Below, piece by piece: positions 14,653 to 53,265 of a stretch of 64,000 bases of DNA (its first letter is position 1; each line of letters starts with the position of its first letter). Location: contig NZ_ACJN02000003.1 of assembly GCF_000174435.1 (NCBI RefSeq), forward strand, positions 698,263-762,262, written 5' to 3'. This DNA comes from Desulfonatronospira thiodismutans ASO3-1 (GTDB taxonomy: Bacteria; Desulfobacterota; Desulfovibrionia; Desulfovibrionales; Desulfonatronovibrionaceae). The position numbers were made by a program, and so were the translations under genes. Under the pieces are notes generated by a model that saw nothing but the letters and a program-made list of their open reading frames with translations, had not been told where the DNA came from and made no database searches.

Positions 14653-14997
14653 TAAAAATTCATCACCGGATACAGTCCGGTCACCCCCTACATATTTGGG
14701 TGAAGAGTCAGGGTCCGGGGGTTCGGCAAACAGGGTCCCGCACTTACTTTTTCTACGTCTGCCCAGTTTTCAAATCAAAATTTGCCAGAAAGTAAGTGCG
14801 GGATCTGAGCGACGTAGGCAGCGTTGATCAAAACCGTAAAACACCGATTTTGATTCAAAGCATTATATAGAAAATTTTAAAGTTTAGAAAAACTTGCAGA
14901 GGTTTTGATTTACGCTGCCTTGGAGCGAGTTTTTACGTCCTGTTTGCCGAATCCCCGGACCGCTGGAGCACATATCGATATGGCTGTGAACAGTTAC
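14653..14997 (+). repeat. Interspersed palindromic repeat, copy A (with hairpin module 1)
   Basis: This is one of four copies of the same non-coding repeat. The core runs from GGGTCCGGGG (14711) to CCCCGGACCGCTG (14965); outer ends resemble TAACTATTCACCA (here ATTCATCACC and GTGAACAGTTAC). The interior pairs GTAGGCAGCGTTGATCAAAACC with GGTTTTGATTTACGCTGCC. Module 1, a 66-bp hairpin with arms CCCGCACTTACTTT and AAAGTAAGTGCGGG, occupies 14737-14802. Module 2 is absent. It fills the valS to cobA-hemD gap and ends next to the latter's ribosome-binding site. Confidence 0.85.
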
Positions 14998-25216: not shown

Positions 25217-25755
25217 GGACTCATCCACAGTTTTGATATATTTATCGGTTCTACATCGTCTCCGGCCGGGACCGGCCTGTTTACAAGCAACTACAAAATT
25301 CAGTTCAGTTATATTGACACTCGACTCCCCGCCTGCCCCGGACAAGACAGCAGAGATTTTCCCTGCGCCTTTGCTTCATGGCGATTATATAAATAATGTC
25401 AAAAAAAGCCAGTAAAAGCAATCCGCTGAACAGACCGGAATACATACGGACTGAAAAAAAACCCGAGATATCAAGTGGAAAGACATAATCCTTTTATCTT
25501 ACGATACCCTGTCCTCTGTTACCTGTCCTGCAGACCGGCACGGCGTCAGTTTGCTGATTAATTCTGGACAGATAAATCTCCAGTAAATGACTGTGAATAT
25601 TTTTTAAAATAAAACCAGAGGTTTGAGTGACGTTTTCTCAGCAGATTCCTTTTCTTGACTTCACCTGCAGTTCAAGATATCAGGATAAATCACTTGAAGC
25701 AGGTACCGGCAAAGGCAGCTTCCAGCTGCTGATGCACGCTCACCTGACGGAGAAG
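25217..25755. other. Divergent intergenic region between the B12-sensor operon and the cobalamin riboswitch
   Basis: There is no supported gene here. A candidate plus-strand promoter for the riboswitch transcript is TTGACT (25655-25660), 17 bases, then TATCAG (25678-25683), the second hexamer being weak. No convincing minus-strand promoter for the sensor operon could be picked by eye. Confidence 0.4.
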
Positions 25756-25965
25756 AAGGTTCGGGTGCGCTTTGCGCCTAACAGGGAACCCTGTGCAAGT
25801 CAGGGACGGACCCACCGCTGTAACCGGGGACCAAAGCCGCATTCAGGCCACTGCCCCGCACTTACTTTTCTATGGGTGTTTTTTCCTTGAAGAAAAAAGT
25901 AAGTGCGGGGCGGGAAGGCGCGGCAAGTAGAAAGATCCGGAAGTCAGAAGACCTGCCTGAACCTC
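25756..25965 (+). promoter_or_regulatory. Cobalamin (AdoCbl) riboswitch with a long repeat-derived stem
   Basis: The conserved boxes occur in order: AGGGAACCCTGTGCAAGTC, GGACCCACCGCTGTAACCGG, AAAGCCGC ... GCCACTG, GGGAAGGCGCGGCAAGTAG and CCGGAAGTCAGAAGACCTGCC. The ends AAGGTTC (25756-25762) and GAACCTC (25959-25965) pair as P1. Between GCCACTG and GGGAAGG the variable stem (25854-25910) is a 57-bp hairpin with arms CCCCGCACTTACTTTT and AAAAGTAAGTGCGGGG. It precedes btuCD and the cob genes, so it should turn down cobamide uptake and synthesis when B12 is plentiful. Confidence 0.95.
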
Positions 25966-26032
25966 TTGAAGAATTGCCGGGCCGGACAATCGGCAAAAAA
26001 AGATCATGATGCCGCGGATGAAAATGGGACAT

Positions 26033-26068
26033 CCCCGGGTCGACAGCAATCGGCCCGGGGTTTTTTTT
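26033..26068 (+). terminator. Intrinsic terminator of the cobalamin riboswitch expression platform
   Basis: CCCCGGG and CCCGGGG form a stem, extended by TCGA/TCGG pairing, followed by eight T residues (26061-26068). It lies about 70 bases after the aptamer and 350 bases before btuC, so regulation is likely by premature termination. Confidence 0.85.
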
Positions 26069-26110: not shown

Positions 26111-26400
26111 TAATTATTCACCACATGTGGGCAAAGAGCAAGGGTCCGGGGGCTTTGCAAGCTGGGCGTAAACTGTCTGAACGACGTAGGAAGAGTTAAT
26201 CAAAACCGTAACACACCGAACTTGGCTTCAAATATGTTATAGGAAACATCCCGGTTATCAAAGCTGTGTGTAGGTTTTGATTTACGCTTCCTTGGAACTC
26301 GCCCTGTTAAACACCGCATAGCGGTCCTGCTTCGCAGGGTTTAACAGGGTGAAGTCTTTACGTCCTGTTTGCAAAGTCTCCGGACCTTGGTGAATAGTTA
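26111..26400 (+). repeat. Interspersed palindromic repeat, copy B (with hairpin module 2)
   Basis: The ends are TAATTATTCACCA (26111) and TGGTGAATAGTTA (ending 26400), near-perfect inverted repeats. The core starts at GGGTCCGGGG (26142) and ends at CTCCGGACC. Module 1 is absent and replaced by GGGCGTAAACTG, as in copy D. Module 2 is a 48-bp hairpin (26302-26349) with arms CCCTGTTAAAC and GTTTAACAGGG. The copy lies between the riboswitch terminator and btuC. Confidence 0.88.
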
Positions 26401-26418: not shown

Positions 26419-27444
26419 ATGCGCATAAGGACATCCATACTCCTCGTTACCCTGGCATTCATGCTTCTGGGCATGATCATCGCCTCGGTAAGCATGGGCT
26501 ACGTCCAGGTACCTCTGTCCACCACTTTCCAGATGCTCTTTTACAAGATCACCGGGCAGCAGGAGCTTTTGCTCCAGGCAGACCCGCTGGTTTACACCGT
26601 GATTTTCGAGGTCAGGCTGCCCAGAGTACTCACCGCAGCCATTGTTGGCGCGGGCCTGGCCCTGGCCGGAGTCATATTCCAGGGTCTTCTGCTGAACCCC
26701 CTGGCCGACCCGTATACTTTGGGGGTATCATCCGGAGCGGCTTTCGGGGCCTCCCTGGTGCTGCTTTTCAACCTGCAGTTCCTTGGGCTTTACACCCTGC
26801 CCCTGTTCGCCTTTATCGCCGGATGCCTGACCCTTCTCTTTGTGGTCTACCTTTCGGCCACGGCCGGTGGATTGTCTTCCAACAATCTTATTTTGTCCGG
26901 AGTGATAGTCAGCGCCATTCTTTCCGCCGGCATAAGCCTGTTCAAGTACCTGGCCCAGGAAAGGGTCTCGGTGATAATATTCTGGCTCATGGGCAGCTTT
27001 GCCTCCAGCACCTGGCCGGAGCTTATCCTGACTTCGTCCATGGTGTTTCTGGGATTCATGGTCTTCATGTTTTATTCCAGGGATATAAATCTCATCTGCC
27101 TGGGCAGCCGGGCCGCGGCGTCTCTCGGCGTGGACACCACTAAGCTCAGGATTATCCTCCTGATAACCGCTTCCCTGGTGGCTGCGGTCTGCGTATCCAT
27201 CTCCGGGATAATCGGATTTGTAGGCCTACTGGTACCGCACATGATGCGCTCTCTAACCGGACCTGAGCACAGAAGCCTTTTGCCGGTGAGCCTTTTGTGC
27301 GGGGCGGTGCTTCTTCTGGCCGCGGACACTTTGACCAGGACCATGCTTCCGGCGGAAGTGCCCATTGGGGTGCTTACAGCCCTCATTGGCGGGCCTTTTT
27401 TCTGCTATATCTTCCGCAAACGCCAGATGCAGTTCAGGGTGTAG
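26419..27444 (+). CDS. btuC: FecCD-type ABC transporter permease, probably cobalamin/cobamide import
   Basis: 341 residues, about ten hydrophobic segments, with the family signatures LPRVLTAAIVGAGLALAGVIFQ, NPLADPYTLGVSSGAAFGA and GIIGFVGLLVPHMMR. It forms the inner-membrane channel of a B12 or siderophore importer. Placement directly behind a cobalamin riboswitch and with btuD and cob genes makes cobamide the likely substrate. No Shine-Dalgarno sequence is seen before the ATG: the preceding 18 bases are T-rich and the repeat copy B ends there. Confidence 0.88.
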   Translation: MRIRTSILLVTLAFMLLGMIIASVSMGYVQVPLSTTFQMLFYKITGQQELLLQADPLVYTVIFEVRLPRVLTAAIVGAGLALAGVIFQGLLLNPLADPYTLGVSSGAAFGASLVLLFNLQFLGLYTLPLFAFIAGCLTLLFVVYLSATAGGLSSNNLILSGVIVSAILSAGISLFKYLAQERVSVIIFWLMGSFASSTWPELILTSSMVFLGFMVFMFYSRDINLICLGSRAAASLGVDTTKLRIILLITASLVAAVCVSISGIIGFVGLLVPHMMRSLTGPEHRSLLPVSLLCGAVLLLAADTLTRTMLPAEVPIGVLTALIGGPFFCYIFRKRQMQFRV

Positions 27445-27447
27445 AGT

Positions 27448-28221
27448 ATGGCCTTTTCCATGAAAGATGTACATTTCGCCCTGGGAGAAACCAGCATCCT
27501 GGAAGATATAAACATTGACCTGCCTCCGGGCAGAATATACGGCATCCTGGGTCCCAACGGCAGTGGCAAGTCCACCTGGCTGGACCTGCTCATCCGGCAC
27601 AGGGTGCCGCAGCAGGGCATGGTAGAGTATAACGGCCACCCCCTGGGATCATACTCCAGGAAACAGATCTCCAAGGAAATGGCCTTAGTTCCCCAGGACT
27701 ACCGCCTGAACTTTCCCTTCCAGGTCCTGGAGGTGCTGCTCATGGGCAGATATCCTTTTCTGCCGCGTTTTGCATCTCCTGGCAGCCGGGACCTGGATAT
27801 CGTCCGGGAGGTTATGCAGAAGACCGGCCTGGAAAAATTTCAGGACAGGATGGTTACTGAGCTGAGCGGTGGTGAGCGCCAGCGGGTGGTTTTCGCCAGG
27901 GCCCTGGTTCAGGATACGCCGGTGCTCATTCTGGATGAAGCCACGGCCAGCTTAGATATCAAGCACGGCCTGCACCTTCTGTCCTTAGTGCGGCAAAAAA
28001 ACCAGCAGGCCCGGACCACGGTCTTTTCCGTATTTCAGGACATCAACCTGGCTGCAGCCTTCTGCAGCCATATTATCTTTTTCAAGCAGGGACGAATCCT
28101 GCTGCACGGCCCGACTACAGAAGTGCTCACCCCGCAAAACCTGGAGCGCGTCTTTGACGTCCGGGCCAAGGTCTATTTCGACGATTATGCACAGTCCACC
28201 CAGGTGGTGTTCAAGGTTTAA
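27448..28221 (+). CDS. btuD: ABC transporter ATP-binding protein of the cobamide importer
   Basis: 257 residues. Walker A GPNGSGKST (35-43), signature LSGGERQRVVFARAL, Walker B PVLILDEATASLD, and a switch histidine region in VFSVFQDINLAAAFCSHI. It energises the BtuC channel and lies 3 bases after btuC. FecE/BtuD-type proteins for haem or iron siderophores look alike; assignment to B12 is from the riboswitch and neighbours. Confidence 0.88.
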   Translation: MAFSMKDVHFALGETSILEDINIDLPPGRIYGILGPNGSGKSTWLDLLIRHRVPQQGMVEYNGHPLGSYSRKQISKEMALVPQDYRLNFPFQVLEVLLMGRYPFLPRFASPGSRDLDIVREVMQKTGLEKFQDRMVTELSGGERQRVVFARALVQDTPVLILDEATASLDIKHGLHLLSLVRQKNQQARTTVFSVFQDINLAAAFCSHIIFFKQGRILLHGPTTEVLTPQNLERVFDVRAKVYFDDYAQSTQVVFKV

Positions 28222-28925: not shown

Positions 28926-29927
28926 ATGAAGATTAAAACCACCTTTACCATATTCTGCGTTTTTCTGGCCCTAATCTACTCTGGTTGCCAGGCCCTGGCC
29001 TCGGAAATGAAAATCCTGGATCAGCAAACCATCCAGGATCAGGGGGGCAGAACCATCCAGGTGGATGAGCCCTTTGAGCGCATCATCTCCCTTTATGGGG
29101 CTCATACGGAAAACCTTTTTTCTCTGGGCCTGAACCAGGAAGTTATCGGAGTGGGCATGAACGAGTGTTACCCTCCCCAGGCCCTGGAAAGACCGTCTTT
29201 TTCCTACCAGGAAGGCCCGGAAAAAATCCTGGCCCACAGGCCGGACCTGGTGCTGGTGAGACCCATGATTGACTGGGCCTATCCCCGGCTCATGGATACC
29301 CTGGAGCGCTCCGGAATTACCATAGTTTCCCTGCAGCCCGGCAGCAAAGATGAAATGTTCAAGTACTGGAAGATACTTGGCATTCTTACCGGAAAAGAGG
29401 AGCAGGCCCTGCAGATGCAGGAGAACTTCAAGGCCGGACTGGAATACGCCCGGAGCCTGACCGCTCATGTGGAGGATAAAAAAGGCGTGTTCTTTGAATC
29501 CATACATGAACAACTCAAGACCTTCTCCCCGGATTCCATGCCCATGCTTGTACTGGAAGCAGCAGGAGGCGAAAACGCTGCATTAGATGCACGTCAGGTG
29601 CGCGGCACCAACATTGCCGATTTCGGGCAGGAAAAACTTTTGTCCAGGGCGGATAAAGTCCAGGTTTATCTTTCCCAGCAGGGCCCCATGAACCAGGCCA
29701 GCCCTGAAAACATTAAAAAACGCCCCGGTTTGCACCTGCTTAAGGCAGTACAGCAGAACCGGGTTTACGCTATTGACGAAGTCCTGGTCTCCAGGCCCAC
29801 CATGCGCCTTCTGCAGGGGATATACGTGGTGGGGGAACACCTTTACCCGGATATATTCCACGAAGACACCCGGGAAAAACTCGACAACTACCGCAAAATG
29901 CAAGGCAGTGAATCTGAAGACTCCTGA
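28926..29927 (+). CDS. btuF: Periplasmic substrate-binding protein of the cobamide ABC importer
   Basis: 333 residues. A Sec signal peptide spans residues 1 to about 25 (cleavage likely after ALA; the SGC at 19-21 is a poor lipobox). The mature part is a FecB/BtuF-type type III binding protein (RIISLYGAHTENLFSLGL, VIGVGM, PDLVLVRPMIDWAYPRLMDTLERSGI). It captures the ligand in the periplasm for BtuCD. It is separated from btuD by 700 bases of repeats, but the three form one importer. A cobinamide, cobamide or siderophore ligand cannot be told apart from sequence. Confidence 0.85.
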   Translation: MKIKTTFTIFCVFLALIYSGCQALASEMKILDQQTIQDQGGRTIQVDEPFERIISLYGAHTENLFSLGLNQEVIGVGMNECYPPQALERPSFSYQEGPEKILAHRPDLVLVRPMIDWAYPRLMDTLERSGITIVSLQPGSKDEMFKYWKILGILTGKEEQALQMQENFKAGLEYARSLTAHVEDKKGVFFESIHEQLKTFSPDSMPMLVLEAAGGENAALDARQVRGTNIADFGQEKLLSRADKVQVYLSQQGPMNQASPENIKKRPGLHLLKAVQQNRVYAIDEVLVSRPTMRLLQGIYVVGEHLYPDIFHEDTREKLDNYRKMQGSESEDS

Positions 29928-29952
29928 TAGCTTGACTCCCAAAGGAAAACCA

Positions 29953-30675
29953 ATGAACAACAGACAAGGAAAACTCTACGGCATAGGAGTGGGGCCGGGC
30001 GACCCGGAACTGATACCCCTCAAGTCAATCAACATTCTCAAAAAAGTAGACGTGGTCTTCTGCGCCTCTTCCAGCAAAAACAACCACAGCCTGGCCGTAA
30101 ACATCGCCAGGGAATATCTTCCAAAGGATACCCTGATTCACAGGCTGCCCTTTCCCATGACCATGGACAAGGAAGTGGCCTCTAAGGCCTGGTCTGAGCA
30201 CGTTGACACCATCCTGGCTGAGCTGAACCAGGGCAAGGACGCTGCCTTTCTCACCCTGGGAGATCCCCTGACCTATTCCACTTTCGGCTACCTCATGCAG
30301 TGCCTGCAATCCAACGCCCCGGAAATCCGCATCGAAACCGTCCCCGGCATCACATCCTTTCAGGCTGCAGCAGCCGCCACCAACACCACCCTGGTGGAGG
30401 GCGAGGAAAGCCTGCTCCTGCTTTCAGGGGTCCAGGGCGGAGACAAGCTCCGGGAGATGTCCTCCAGGGTGGACAACGTGGTCTTTCTCAAGGCCTACAA
30501 AAATATTACGGATATCTGCGAGGCCTTGGATGAAAGCGGGCGGATGAAGACGGCGGTGGGCGTGGTTCGCTGTGGCTTCCCGGACCAGGAAGTATTTCAG
30601 GATGTAAAAGAGCTCTGCAGCCAGGAACCTAAGTACTGGACCCTGATTATATCCAAGCCGGGGCAGGAAGAATGA
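29953..30675 (+). CDS. cobI: Precorrin-2/cobalt-factor II C20-methyltransferase
   Basis: 240 residues from the ATG at 29953, preceded by AAAGGAAA; a longer frame to 29773 overlaps btuF and is rejected. LYGIGVGPGDPELIPLKSINIL is the CobI/CbiL N-terminus, with LTLGDPLTYSTFGYL and VPGITSFQAAAAATNTTLVEG. It methylates C20 of the corrin ring with SAM. The oxygen-independent route (CbiL name) is likely in this anaerobe. Its stop codon overlaps the cobS start (ATGA). Confidence 0.92.
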   Translation: MNNRQGKLYGIGVGPGDPELIPLKSINILKKVDVVFCASSSKNNHSLAVNIAREYLPKDTLIHRLPFPMTMDKEVASKAWSEHVDTILAELNQGKDAAFLTLGDPLTYSTFGYLMQCLQSNAPEIRIETVPGITSFQAAAAATNTTLVEGEESLLLLSGVQGGDKLREMSSRVDNVVFLKAYKNITDICEALDESGRMKTAVGVVRCGFPDQEVFQDVKELCSQEPKYWTLIISKPGQEE

Positions 30676-39536: not shown

Positions 39537-39906
39537 TAACTATTCACCAACTGATAAAACTGGTAAATCTATGCCCACCGCAGCTATCCAGGGTCCGGGG
39601 GCTTTGCAAGCTGGGTCCCGCACTTACTTTCTTAAGTCTGCCCAACTTTCAAAACAAGATTTGCCAGAAAGTAAGTGCGGGATCTGAACGACGTAGGAAG
39701 CGTTAATCAAAACCGTAAAACACCGAACTTGATTTGAAGCATGATATAGAAGTTATTCCAGCTTAAAAATTCATGTATAGGTTTTGATTTACGCTTCCTT
39801 GGAGCTCGCCCTGTTAAACACCGCATAGCGGTCCTGCTTCGCAGGGTTTAACAGGGTGAAGTTTTTACGTCCTGCTTGCAAAGTCCCCGGACCCTGTAAA
39901 TAGTTA
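39537..39906 (+). repeat. Interspersed palindromic repeat, copy C (both hairpin modules)
   Basis: It is the largest copy, 370 bp, from TAACTATTCACCA (39537) to AATAGTTA (ending 39906). The core is GGGTCCGGGG (39594) to CCCCGGACCC. Module 1 is at 39617-39681, module 2 at 39809-39856. Its right end overlaps the last codon position of nadE: the TAA stop of that gene is the first triplet of the terminal inverted repeat. The gap 39506-39903 holds no gene. Confidence 0.9.
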
Positions 39907-53010: not shown

Positions 53011-53265
53011 AGTTCACCAGGGTCCGGGGGCTTTGCAAACAGGACGTAAAAACTCACTCCAAGGAAGCGTAAATCAAAACCTATACACGAGTTTTTAAAC
53101 CAGAATAACTTCTATAACATGCTTTGAATCAAATTCGGTGTTGAACGGTTTTGATTAACGCTTCCTACGTTGTTCAGACAGTTTACGCCCTGTTTGCAAA
53201 GCCCCCGGACCCTGGATTGCAGCGGTGCGCTTAGATTGACCAGTTTTATCAGATGATGAATCTTA
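53011..53265 (-). repeat. Interspersed palindromic repeat, copy D (inverted orientation, no modules)
   Basis: It is the simplest copy. Plus-strand ends are TTCACCAGGGTCC (53014) and TTTTATCAGATGATGAATC (to about 53262). Read on the minus strand, the outer arm ACTGGTCAATCTA and the core GGGTCCGGGGGC match copy C. Neither hairpin module is present, so it probably shows the ancestral layout. It lies between tatD and the convergent cNMP gene; the gap 53000-53362 holds no gene. Confidence 0.88.

Follow-up and report, generated by a model that had tools for sequence, protein, structure and literature searches.

REPIN/RAYT systems consist of palindromic doublets and Y1 transposases, and the intervening sequences (IVS) of 23S rRNA are extra hairpins at a stem tip that occur in some rRNA copies only. 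The Rickettsia palindromic element (RPE) has been found in M1 RNA and transfer-messenger RNA (tmRNA) (Ogata 2002, as told in PMC2229807); in the relevant passages of that account, the elements are 105-146 bp long, carry reading frames and are mainly insertions in protein genes. In heterocyst-forming cyanobacteria, short tandem repeats (STRR) have been reported in RNase P RNA (Vioque 1997, as cited in PMC2858038), and a passage of PMC2858038 describes P12 as sometimes dispensable in cyanobacteria. According to these parts of the two sources, palindromic elements in RNase P RNA or tmRNA (PMC2229807) and repeats in RNase P RNA (PMC2858038) are already known. Our study concerns a stretch of 64,000 nucleotides (hereafter the window) from Desulfonatronospira thiodismutans ASO3-1 (contig NZ_ACJN02000003.1, positions 698,263 to 762,262), whose genome (G000) comprises 4.1 Mb in 5 contigs. 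We identified in it a cobalamin riboswitch whose variable stem is, with a probability of about 0.78, a copy of a family of non-autonomous mobile palindromes that settle on peripheral stem tips and inside palindromic repeats.

The riboswitch aptamer (RF00174) occupies positions 25746-25974 on the forward strand and was recovered by cmscan with 103 bits over the whole model (1-189 of 189, E 1.2e-24; gathering threshold 31.5). Its variable stem, between the GCCACTG and GGGAAGG boxes, is a forward-strand hairpin of 57 bp (25854-25910) with a loop at 25870-25894 and perfect arms of 16 bp, the arm CCCCGCACTTACTTTT being found exactly at 25854-25869 on the forward strand and at 25895-25910 on the reverse strand. 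When up to three mismatches were allowed, the window held 7 occurrences of this arm where 0.53 were expected, none of 100 shuffles giving as many. In the predicted fold, this segment forms a hairpin whose outer 18 base pairs are contiguous (-37.4 kcal/mol, z -6.2; none of 200 shuffles was equally stable) and which folds on the native riboswitch stem; the aptamer as a whole has a z of -3.4. The Rfam score and the exact inverted arms confirm the original prediction of a riboswitch whose variable stem is made of a repeat hairpin, and its statement that the same arms form module 1 of two copies of a large modular repeat also held, with the hairpin on the forward strand at 14736-14803 (copy A) and 39616-39682 (copy C). 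The loops had been called unrelated; this is correct with respect to copies A and C. The loop of the riboswitch is nevertheless similar, by eye, to the loops found in the RNase P P3 hairpin and in a second riboswitch (RS-B) of the same genome. Within this genome, the four riboswitches with the hairpin in their variable stem score 90-112 bits, against 114 for the one without any hairpin, which indicates that the aptamer sequence has been kept. The riboswitch, the RNase P RNA and the 23S rRNA described below probably go on functioning with the hairpin in place.

A genome-wide search at no more than one mismatch found the two arms 72 and 73 times, compared with 1 and 2 for the reversed-pattern control. 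Complete exact hairpins of the form CCMGCACTYAYTT..AARTRAGTGCKGG, of three arm types, number 131 in the genome, and the reversed pattern gave 0. These arm types are alpha (CCCGCACTTACTTT, the riboswitch hairpin), beta (CCCGCACTTATTTT) and gamma (CCAGCACTCACTTT); a difference between types affects both arms of a hairpin at once. The arms are built around GCAC-YY-A-Y-TT, the loops are variable, and the members range from about 43 to 120 bp, or longer if nested. Beta hairpins lie mostly between GGGGAC and GTCCC boxes. The gamma sample consists of 41 hairpins on contig 1, short of its end, and these lie in a few intergenic repeats, except two that have flanks of their own.

In the large modular repeat, a nested-palindrome repeat found at about 40 places genome-wide, the alpha hairpin constitutes module 1. 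Parsing succeeded at 25 of 30 loci (5 were left unparsed), and the 25 parsed copies comprise 11 that are filled and 14 that are empty. Four copies lie in the window (14709-14961, 26141-26399, 39580-39905 and 53018-53223), with the hairpin module in two and missing from two; copy B, on the forward strand at 26141-26399 (G000:C3:724403-724661; L036), is an empty site and is counted among the empty copies. The original prediction had left a choice between insertion of the repeat into the riboswitch and a separate mobile unit. The second is favored, since the hairpin occurs alone in other riboswitches, in RNase P RNA, in 23S rRNA and in the terminator of the signal recognition particle (SRP) RNA, and since, as a module of the large repeat, it is either there or missing in its entirety. 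Insertion of the large repeat itself was ruled out, as only its hairpin module is common to both.

Outside the modular repeat, structured RNAs are the predominant hosts of the alpha type. Eleven alpha-type hairpins with both arms were counted there, and nine of them are in a structured RNA or its terminator; alpha hairpins in no Rfam RNA are at C1:301990 and C3:56422. Four of the six cobalamin riboswitches of the genome carry the alpha hairpin in the variable stem: RS-A (the window riboswitch), RS-B (C1:302119), RS-C (C1:285401) and RS-D (C1:261167). A fifth, RS-E, has a gamma-like hairpin elsewhere, between CAAG repeats, and RS-F has none. The RNase P RNA holds arms on the first and fifth hairpin regions of the RF00010 alignment, which we take to be P3 and P12; P3 contains one hairpin, and P12 a hairpin nested within a hairpin. 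The SRP RNA has the hairpin in the terminator directly after the gene. If about 20 distinct insertion contexts are assumed, 10 of them in RNA, and RNA is put at 3% of non-coding DNA (both the 20 and the 3% are estimates), a rough p of ~1e-10 results.

The 23S rRNA provides a filled and an empty site within one genome. Its flank was matched at two places, and the hairpin is present in one of the two 23S copies (C1:53604), while the other copy reads, in rRNA sense, GATGTTATTTTACTTCGGTGGGAGAAGC. The two copies are 100% identical over 250 bp on one side of the site, and on the other side they show two mismatches in the first 499 compared bases. The site is presumably the tip of helix 68, judging by the E. 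coli sequence. In a relative (G017), a hairpin occurs at a different place of the 23S rRNA, in both rrn copies seen.

Comparison with relatives shows the hairpin present or absent at corresponding riboswitch sites. We read all 36 RF00174 matches in the 18 genomes of the family, 15 of which had a match. In the genus Desulfonatronospira, 15 of 21 riboswitches have the hairpin in the variable stem, 2 have it elsewhere and 4 have none; among the 15, both arms are exact in 11 and one arm in 1, and altered arms were judged by eye in 3 (L269, L277 and L292). The least certain of them is L277 (G069), whose arms, CCTGCGCCTGCTTTTT and its complement, resemble an alpha arm in which changes on one side are compensated on the other. 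In other genera the hairpin was found in 3 of 5 riboswitches of g2, which includes Desulfonatronovibrio (G046), with both arms exact in one, and in 0 of 4 and 0 of 6 riboswitches of g3 and g4. The orthologs of RS-A in G022 and G042 carry the hairpin, with the loop inverted in G042, and G057 shows an inversion at RS-B (both judged by eye). RS-D has a layered structure. In G057 its hairpin is decayed and bare; in G000 and G042 the loop encloses a second palindrome; and in G022 the loop holds a different repeat, which itself contains a beta hairpin. Outside the family, two riboswitches of G047 (family f2) carry hairpins of this kind in the variable stem (L367). It had been proposed that the same stem in orthologous riboswitches of unrelated species would mean shared ancestry instead of insertion. 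Formally, such stems exist, in sister-species orthologs and in the two riboswitches of another family, but mobility is not contradicted, because the same hairpins occur in unrelated RNAs and exchange places. A separate observation concerns a riboswitch of G007 (L293), in which the same stem contains a long insert without these arms; elements other than this hairpin may use the site.

The RNase P RNA shows a similar pattern over a wider range. RF00010 was obtained in 14 of the 18 family genomes; both P12 arms are recognisable in 10 of these 14, only the left arm was noted in G032, and P12 is short, different or altered in G050, G012 and G017. The P3 arms are recognisable in 9 family genomes. 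A P12-anchored pattern matched 37 of 348 genomes of the class (13 of 18 in family f1, 6 of 8 in f4, 9 of 11 in f2, 0 of 22 in f3, 0 of 1 in f6 and 9 of 288 in f5). On inspection, 7 of the 9 matches in f2 are RNase P, whereas neither of the two checked among the nine in f5 (L346 and L347) is; since the reversed control of this pattern also matched some f3 and f5 genomes, single matches in f5 are expected by chance. Related hairpins occur in P12 across three families of the order. The exact-hairpin pattern was found in 10 of 199 order genomes (6 of the 7 genus members and two each from g2 and f4), and a free hairpin pattern in 26 of the 348 (15 in f1, 4 in f4, 6 in f2 and 1 in f5), with 0 for the control. 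Among 27 loci selected by the latter search, as opposed to drawn at random (L348-L374), the hairpin lies in an Rfam RNA in 10.

Three minor observations come from the same searches. The sole f5 genome with the free pattern, G200, has 10 forward and 9 reverse matches. Family hairpins at L340, L375, L376 and L377 (G002 and G033) lie within palindromic-looking flanks without an Rfam match, possibly corresponding to unknown RNAs or terminators. Contigs of other phyla among the matches listed (L097, L151 and L153) were dropped, no Rfam RNA being found there; L151, which is labelled Clostridia, contains the beta repeat of Desulfonatronospira and might have been binned incorrectly.

The arms have changed in a compensatory way, and the loops have turned over. 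We compared 23 P12 stems, out of 26 rows from which G042, G057 and G032 were dropped (contig end or search pattern); the left arms had been selected by the search pattern and the right arms had not. All 15 arm positions are paired in at least 91% of these stems, and 8 of the 15 use two or more standard pair types. The loops are mostly without a strong match in other genomes; within one genome, the loops of P3 and P12 match each other in G007, G046 and G066. The nested unit of the G000 P12 was found in the P3 of G057 (score 166), the P3 loop of G000 is similar to that of P12 in G022, and by eye the hairpin types appear recombined in G013, G023 and G038. In the sister genomes G015 and G035 the orthologous loops are kept, as under plain descent. 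Judging from these comparisons, copying between stems produces such exchange, and vertical descent alone does not.

In the sequences compared, the size of the family, its presence and absence at the same sites, its unrelated RNA hosts, shared loops, nesting, exchange and compensatory arm changes are all documented. The mobile palindrome family proposed here rests on the 131 hairpins against none in the control, the nine RNA-associated alpha copies, the empty 23S site, the exchange between stems, the presence and absence in riboswitches and RNase P RNA, the nested loops of RS-D, the compensatory arm pairs and the stem of L367. The arms would act as the recognition ends of a non-autonomous palindrome that is moved as DNA by an enzyme supplied in trans, and we infer that stem tips are preferred by the element, beyond its mere survival there. 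The palindrome would be tolerated, perhaps preferred, at such tips. In RNA it would fold atop the host stem, leaving the core in place and lengthening the outer stem only. Over time, copies would be replaced, inverted and nested with arm pairing maintained, and much of the later turnover may come from conversion between hairpins.

Several results weigh against this interpretation. Most copies lie outside RNA, given that the beta hairpins and the 41 gamma hairpins are in larger repeats or have unique non-RNA flanks. At the 23S site the native UUCG tip of the stem was replaced by the hairpin and not merely interrupted; in the modular repeat, likewise, the hairpin replaces native bases and does not merely add to them. 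Several comparisons use metagenome-assembled genomes, in which chimeric joins at the repeated arms are possible. Y1_Tnp matches (IS200/RAYT-type) number 31 in the genome, several in tandem, but no hairpin with these arms was found in the 30 loci of these matches. Direct repeats of at least 4 occur at 22 of 192 hairpin flank pairs (control mean 2.8, largest 11), and 20 of the 22 come from a single repeat family, whose direct repeats have a second reading as a pair of flanking boxes. Beyond the arms, the host flanks show only a weak excess of pairing (p 0.018 in 31 clusters), with contiguous continuation of at least 3 pairs at 19 of 192 sites compared with 11.9 in shuffles, the largest shuffle value being 21.

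Some of these results led us to reject particular candidates. A simple target-site duplication was dropped because the signal, except for two cases, comes from the one family and may reflect two flanking boxes, which also flank a different insert: at L088, L102, L135 and L192, which belong to the repeat family carrying the beta hairpins, such an insert is enclosed by pairs of GGGGACWGTCCCC boxes spaced about 85 bp apart. We also dropped the general rule that hosts are palindromes, for which 6 of the 31 clusters lie beyond the 5% tail of the control. An autonomous element between neighboring hairpins about 1.5-3 kb apart was discarded as well, since the open reading frames of 6 inter-hairpin stretches include nothing transposase-like on visual reading; this judgement was made without a family search.

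A stronger version of our interpretation is that the hairpin system targets stem-loop structure itself, recognising tips and moving whole hairpins from stem to stem within one RNA (P3 and P12 of RNase P), from one RNA class to another and into its own loops. We consider this tentative, nearer to a one-in-three prospect than to an even one, and the weak enrichment of host-flank pairing lowers it slightly. If true, structured RNA genes would be natural sites of the element, which would act as a generator of stem-length variation in conserved RNAs.

Among the rival explanations, the one that survives best is hairpin-for-hairpin gene conversion or template switching, in which the arms serve as short homologies for the replacement of one palindrome by another and no transposase acts after the first arrival. 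It would account for the replacement of native bases at the 23S and modular-repeat sites, for the loop similarity of P3 and P12 within G007, G046 and G066, for the recombined types in three further genomes and for the inverted loops of orthologous riboswitches. However, conversion alone brings no hairpin to sites free of arms, such as the 23S stem with its native UUCG tip or the position of RS-E between CAAG repeats, and as a full explanation we regard it as possible but doubtful. Less probable is a system of the REPIN/RAYT type, where the hairpins would be REP-like doublets mobilised by one of the genome's own Y1 transposases. The abundance of Y1_Tnp matches, the beta hairpins between GGGGAC and GTCCC boxes and the presence of GGGGACWG boxes, some overlapping, in 10 of the 30 Y1 loci agree with it. 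Nevertheless, the hairpin is absent from all 30 loci and the alpha hairpins in RNAs have no GGGGAC boxes in their flanks, so we judge this system unlikely; despite the boxes, the Y1 transposase was dropped as the evident mover for the first of these reasons.

It is still less likely that the arms are a conserved functional RNA motif, selected as a protein-binding or processing site and spread with the RNAs, mobility being minor. Arms resembling GCACYYACTT are kept in the RNase P RNA of three families while the loops diverge (the constancy of the left arm being partly by construction), and arm pairing is kept by compensation, in agreement with such a motif. Against this, the hairpin is present or absent between orthologs and even between the two rRNA copies of one cell, many copies lie in intergenic repeats, and others are nested in loops. 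Chance resemblance, or an ordinary riboswitch stem unrelated to the repeats, can practically be dismissed: sister-species orthologs carry the same stem (L285 and L291), as inheritance would give, but the control yielded no hairpins against 131 and the same unit occurs in unrelated RNAs.

The hairpin family shares features with each of the known systems. Like IVS, it adds an extra stem that is missing from some 23S copies, one of two being filled here, but it also occurs in riboswitches, RNase P RNA and repeats, and it is known in our study from DNA and a predicted fold. It resembles REPIN/RAYT systems in its palindromic doublets and in the Y1 transposases of the genome, and differs in that none of the 30 Y1 loci is flanked by the repeat. 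The likeness to miniature inverted-repeat transposable elements (MITEs), as these are characterised in part of PMC2229807, lies in small size, terminal inverted repeats, non-autonomy, a variable interior and many short copies (131 hairpins, control 0), and the difference in the replacement of native bases. With RPE, according to the same passages, it has in common dispersed palindromic stem-loop repeats with terminal inverted repeats, located in intergenic regions and inside genes such as that of RNase P RNA (here in P3 and P12). The RPE description in those passages sets the two apart, the Desulfonatronospira hairpin measuring 43-120 bp and having other arms. Its alpha copies outside the larger repeat are mostly in RNAs, far more concentrated there than RPE, and the parts of PMC2229807 that concern RPE do not mention riboswitch or 23S rRNA hosts. 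STRR, as outlined in PMC2858038, are short tandem repeats, whereas this hairpin is dispersed.

No report of this hairpin was found among the literature matches listed, which are open-licence papers. As far as the literature searched shows, what is new is that alpha copies are concentrated in structured RNAs, that riboswitches and the SRP terminator serve as hosts, that hairpins are exchanged between stems and that they are nested in layers. Slow drift is the usual explanation for variable outer stems in riboswitches, RNase P RNA and rRNA; here, one mobile hairpin family would build outer stems in several RNA classes of soda-lake sulfate reducers, and because empty sites exist both within the genome and among its relatives, the process is open to dating and testing. 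It is important to consider that a conserved-looking stem of an RNA family can be a repeat. The question posed is what moves the hairpin onto a stem tip.

The remaining features of the window lie downstream of the riboswitch on the forward strand. A terminator-like stem at 26033-26060, a possible expression platform, is no evidence by itself, as the pattern scan found 1 against 1.1 expected in shuffles. Pfam matches identify transport and tetrapyrrole genes: a FecCD-family permease resembling BtuC (26419-27444; PF01032, 310.7 bits), an ABC transporter ATPase (27448-28221; PF00005, 114.7 bits), a periplasmic binding protein (28926-29927; PF01497, 57.7 bits) and a tetrapyrrole methylase (29950-30675; PF00590, 173.1 bits), the last tested from 29950, with its listed open reading frame beginning at 29773.
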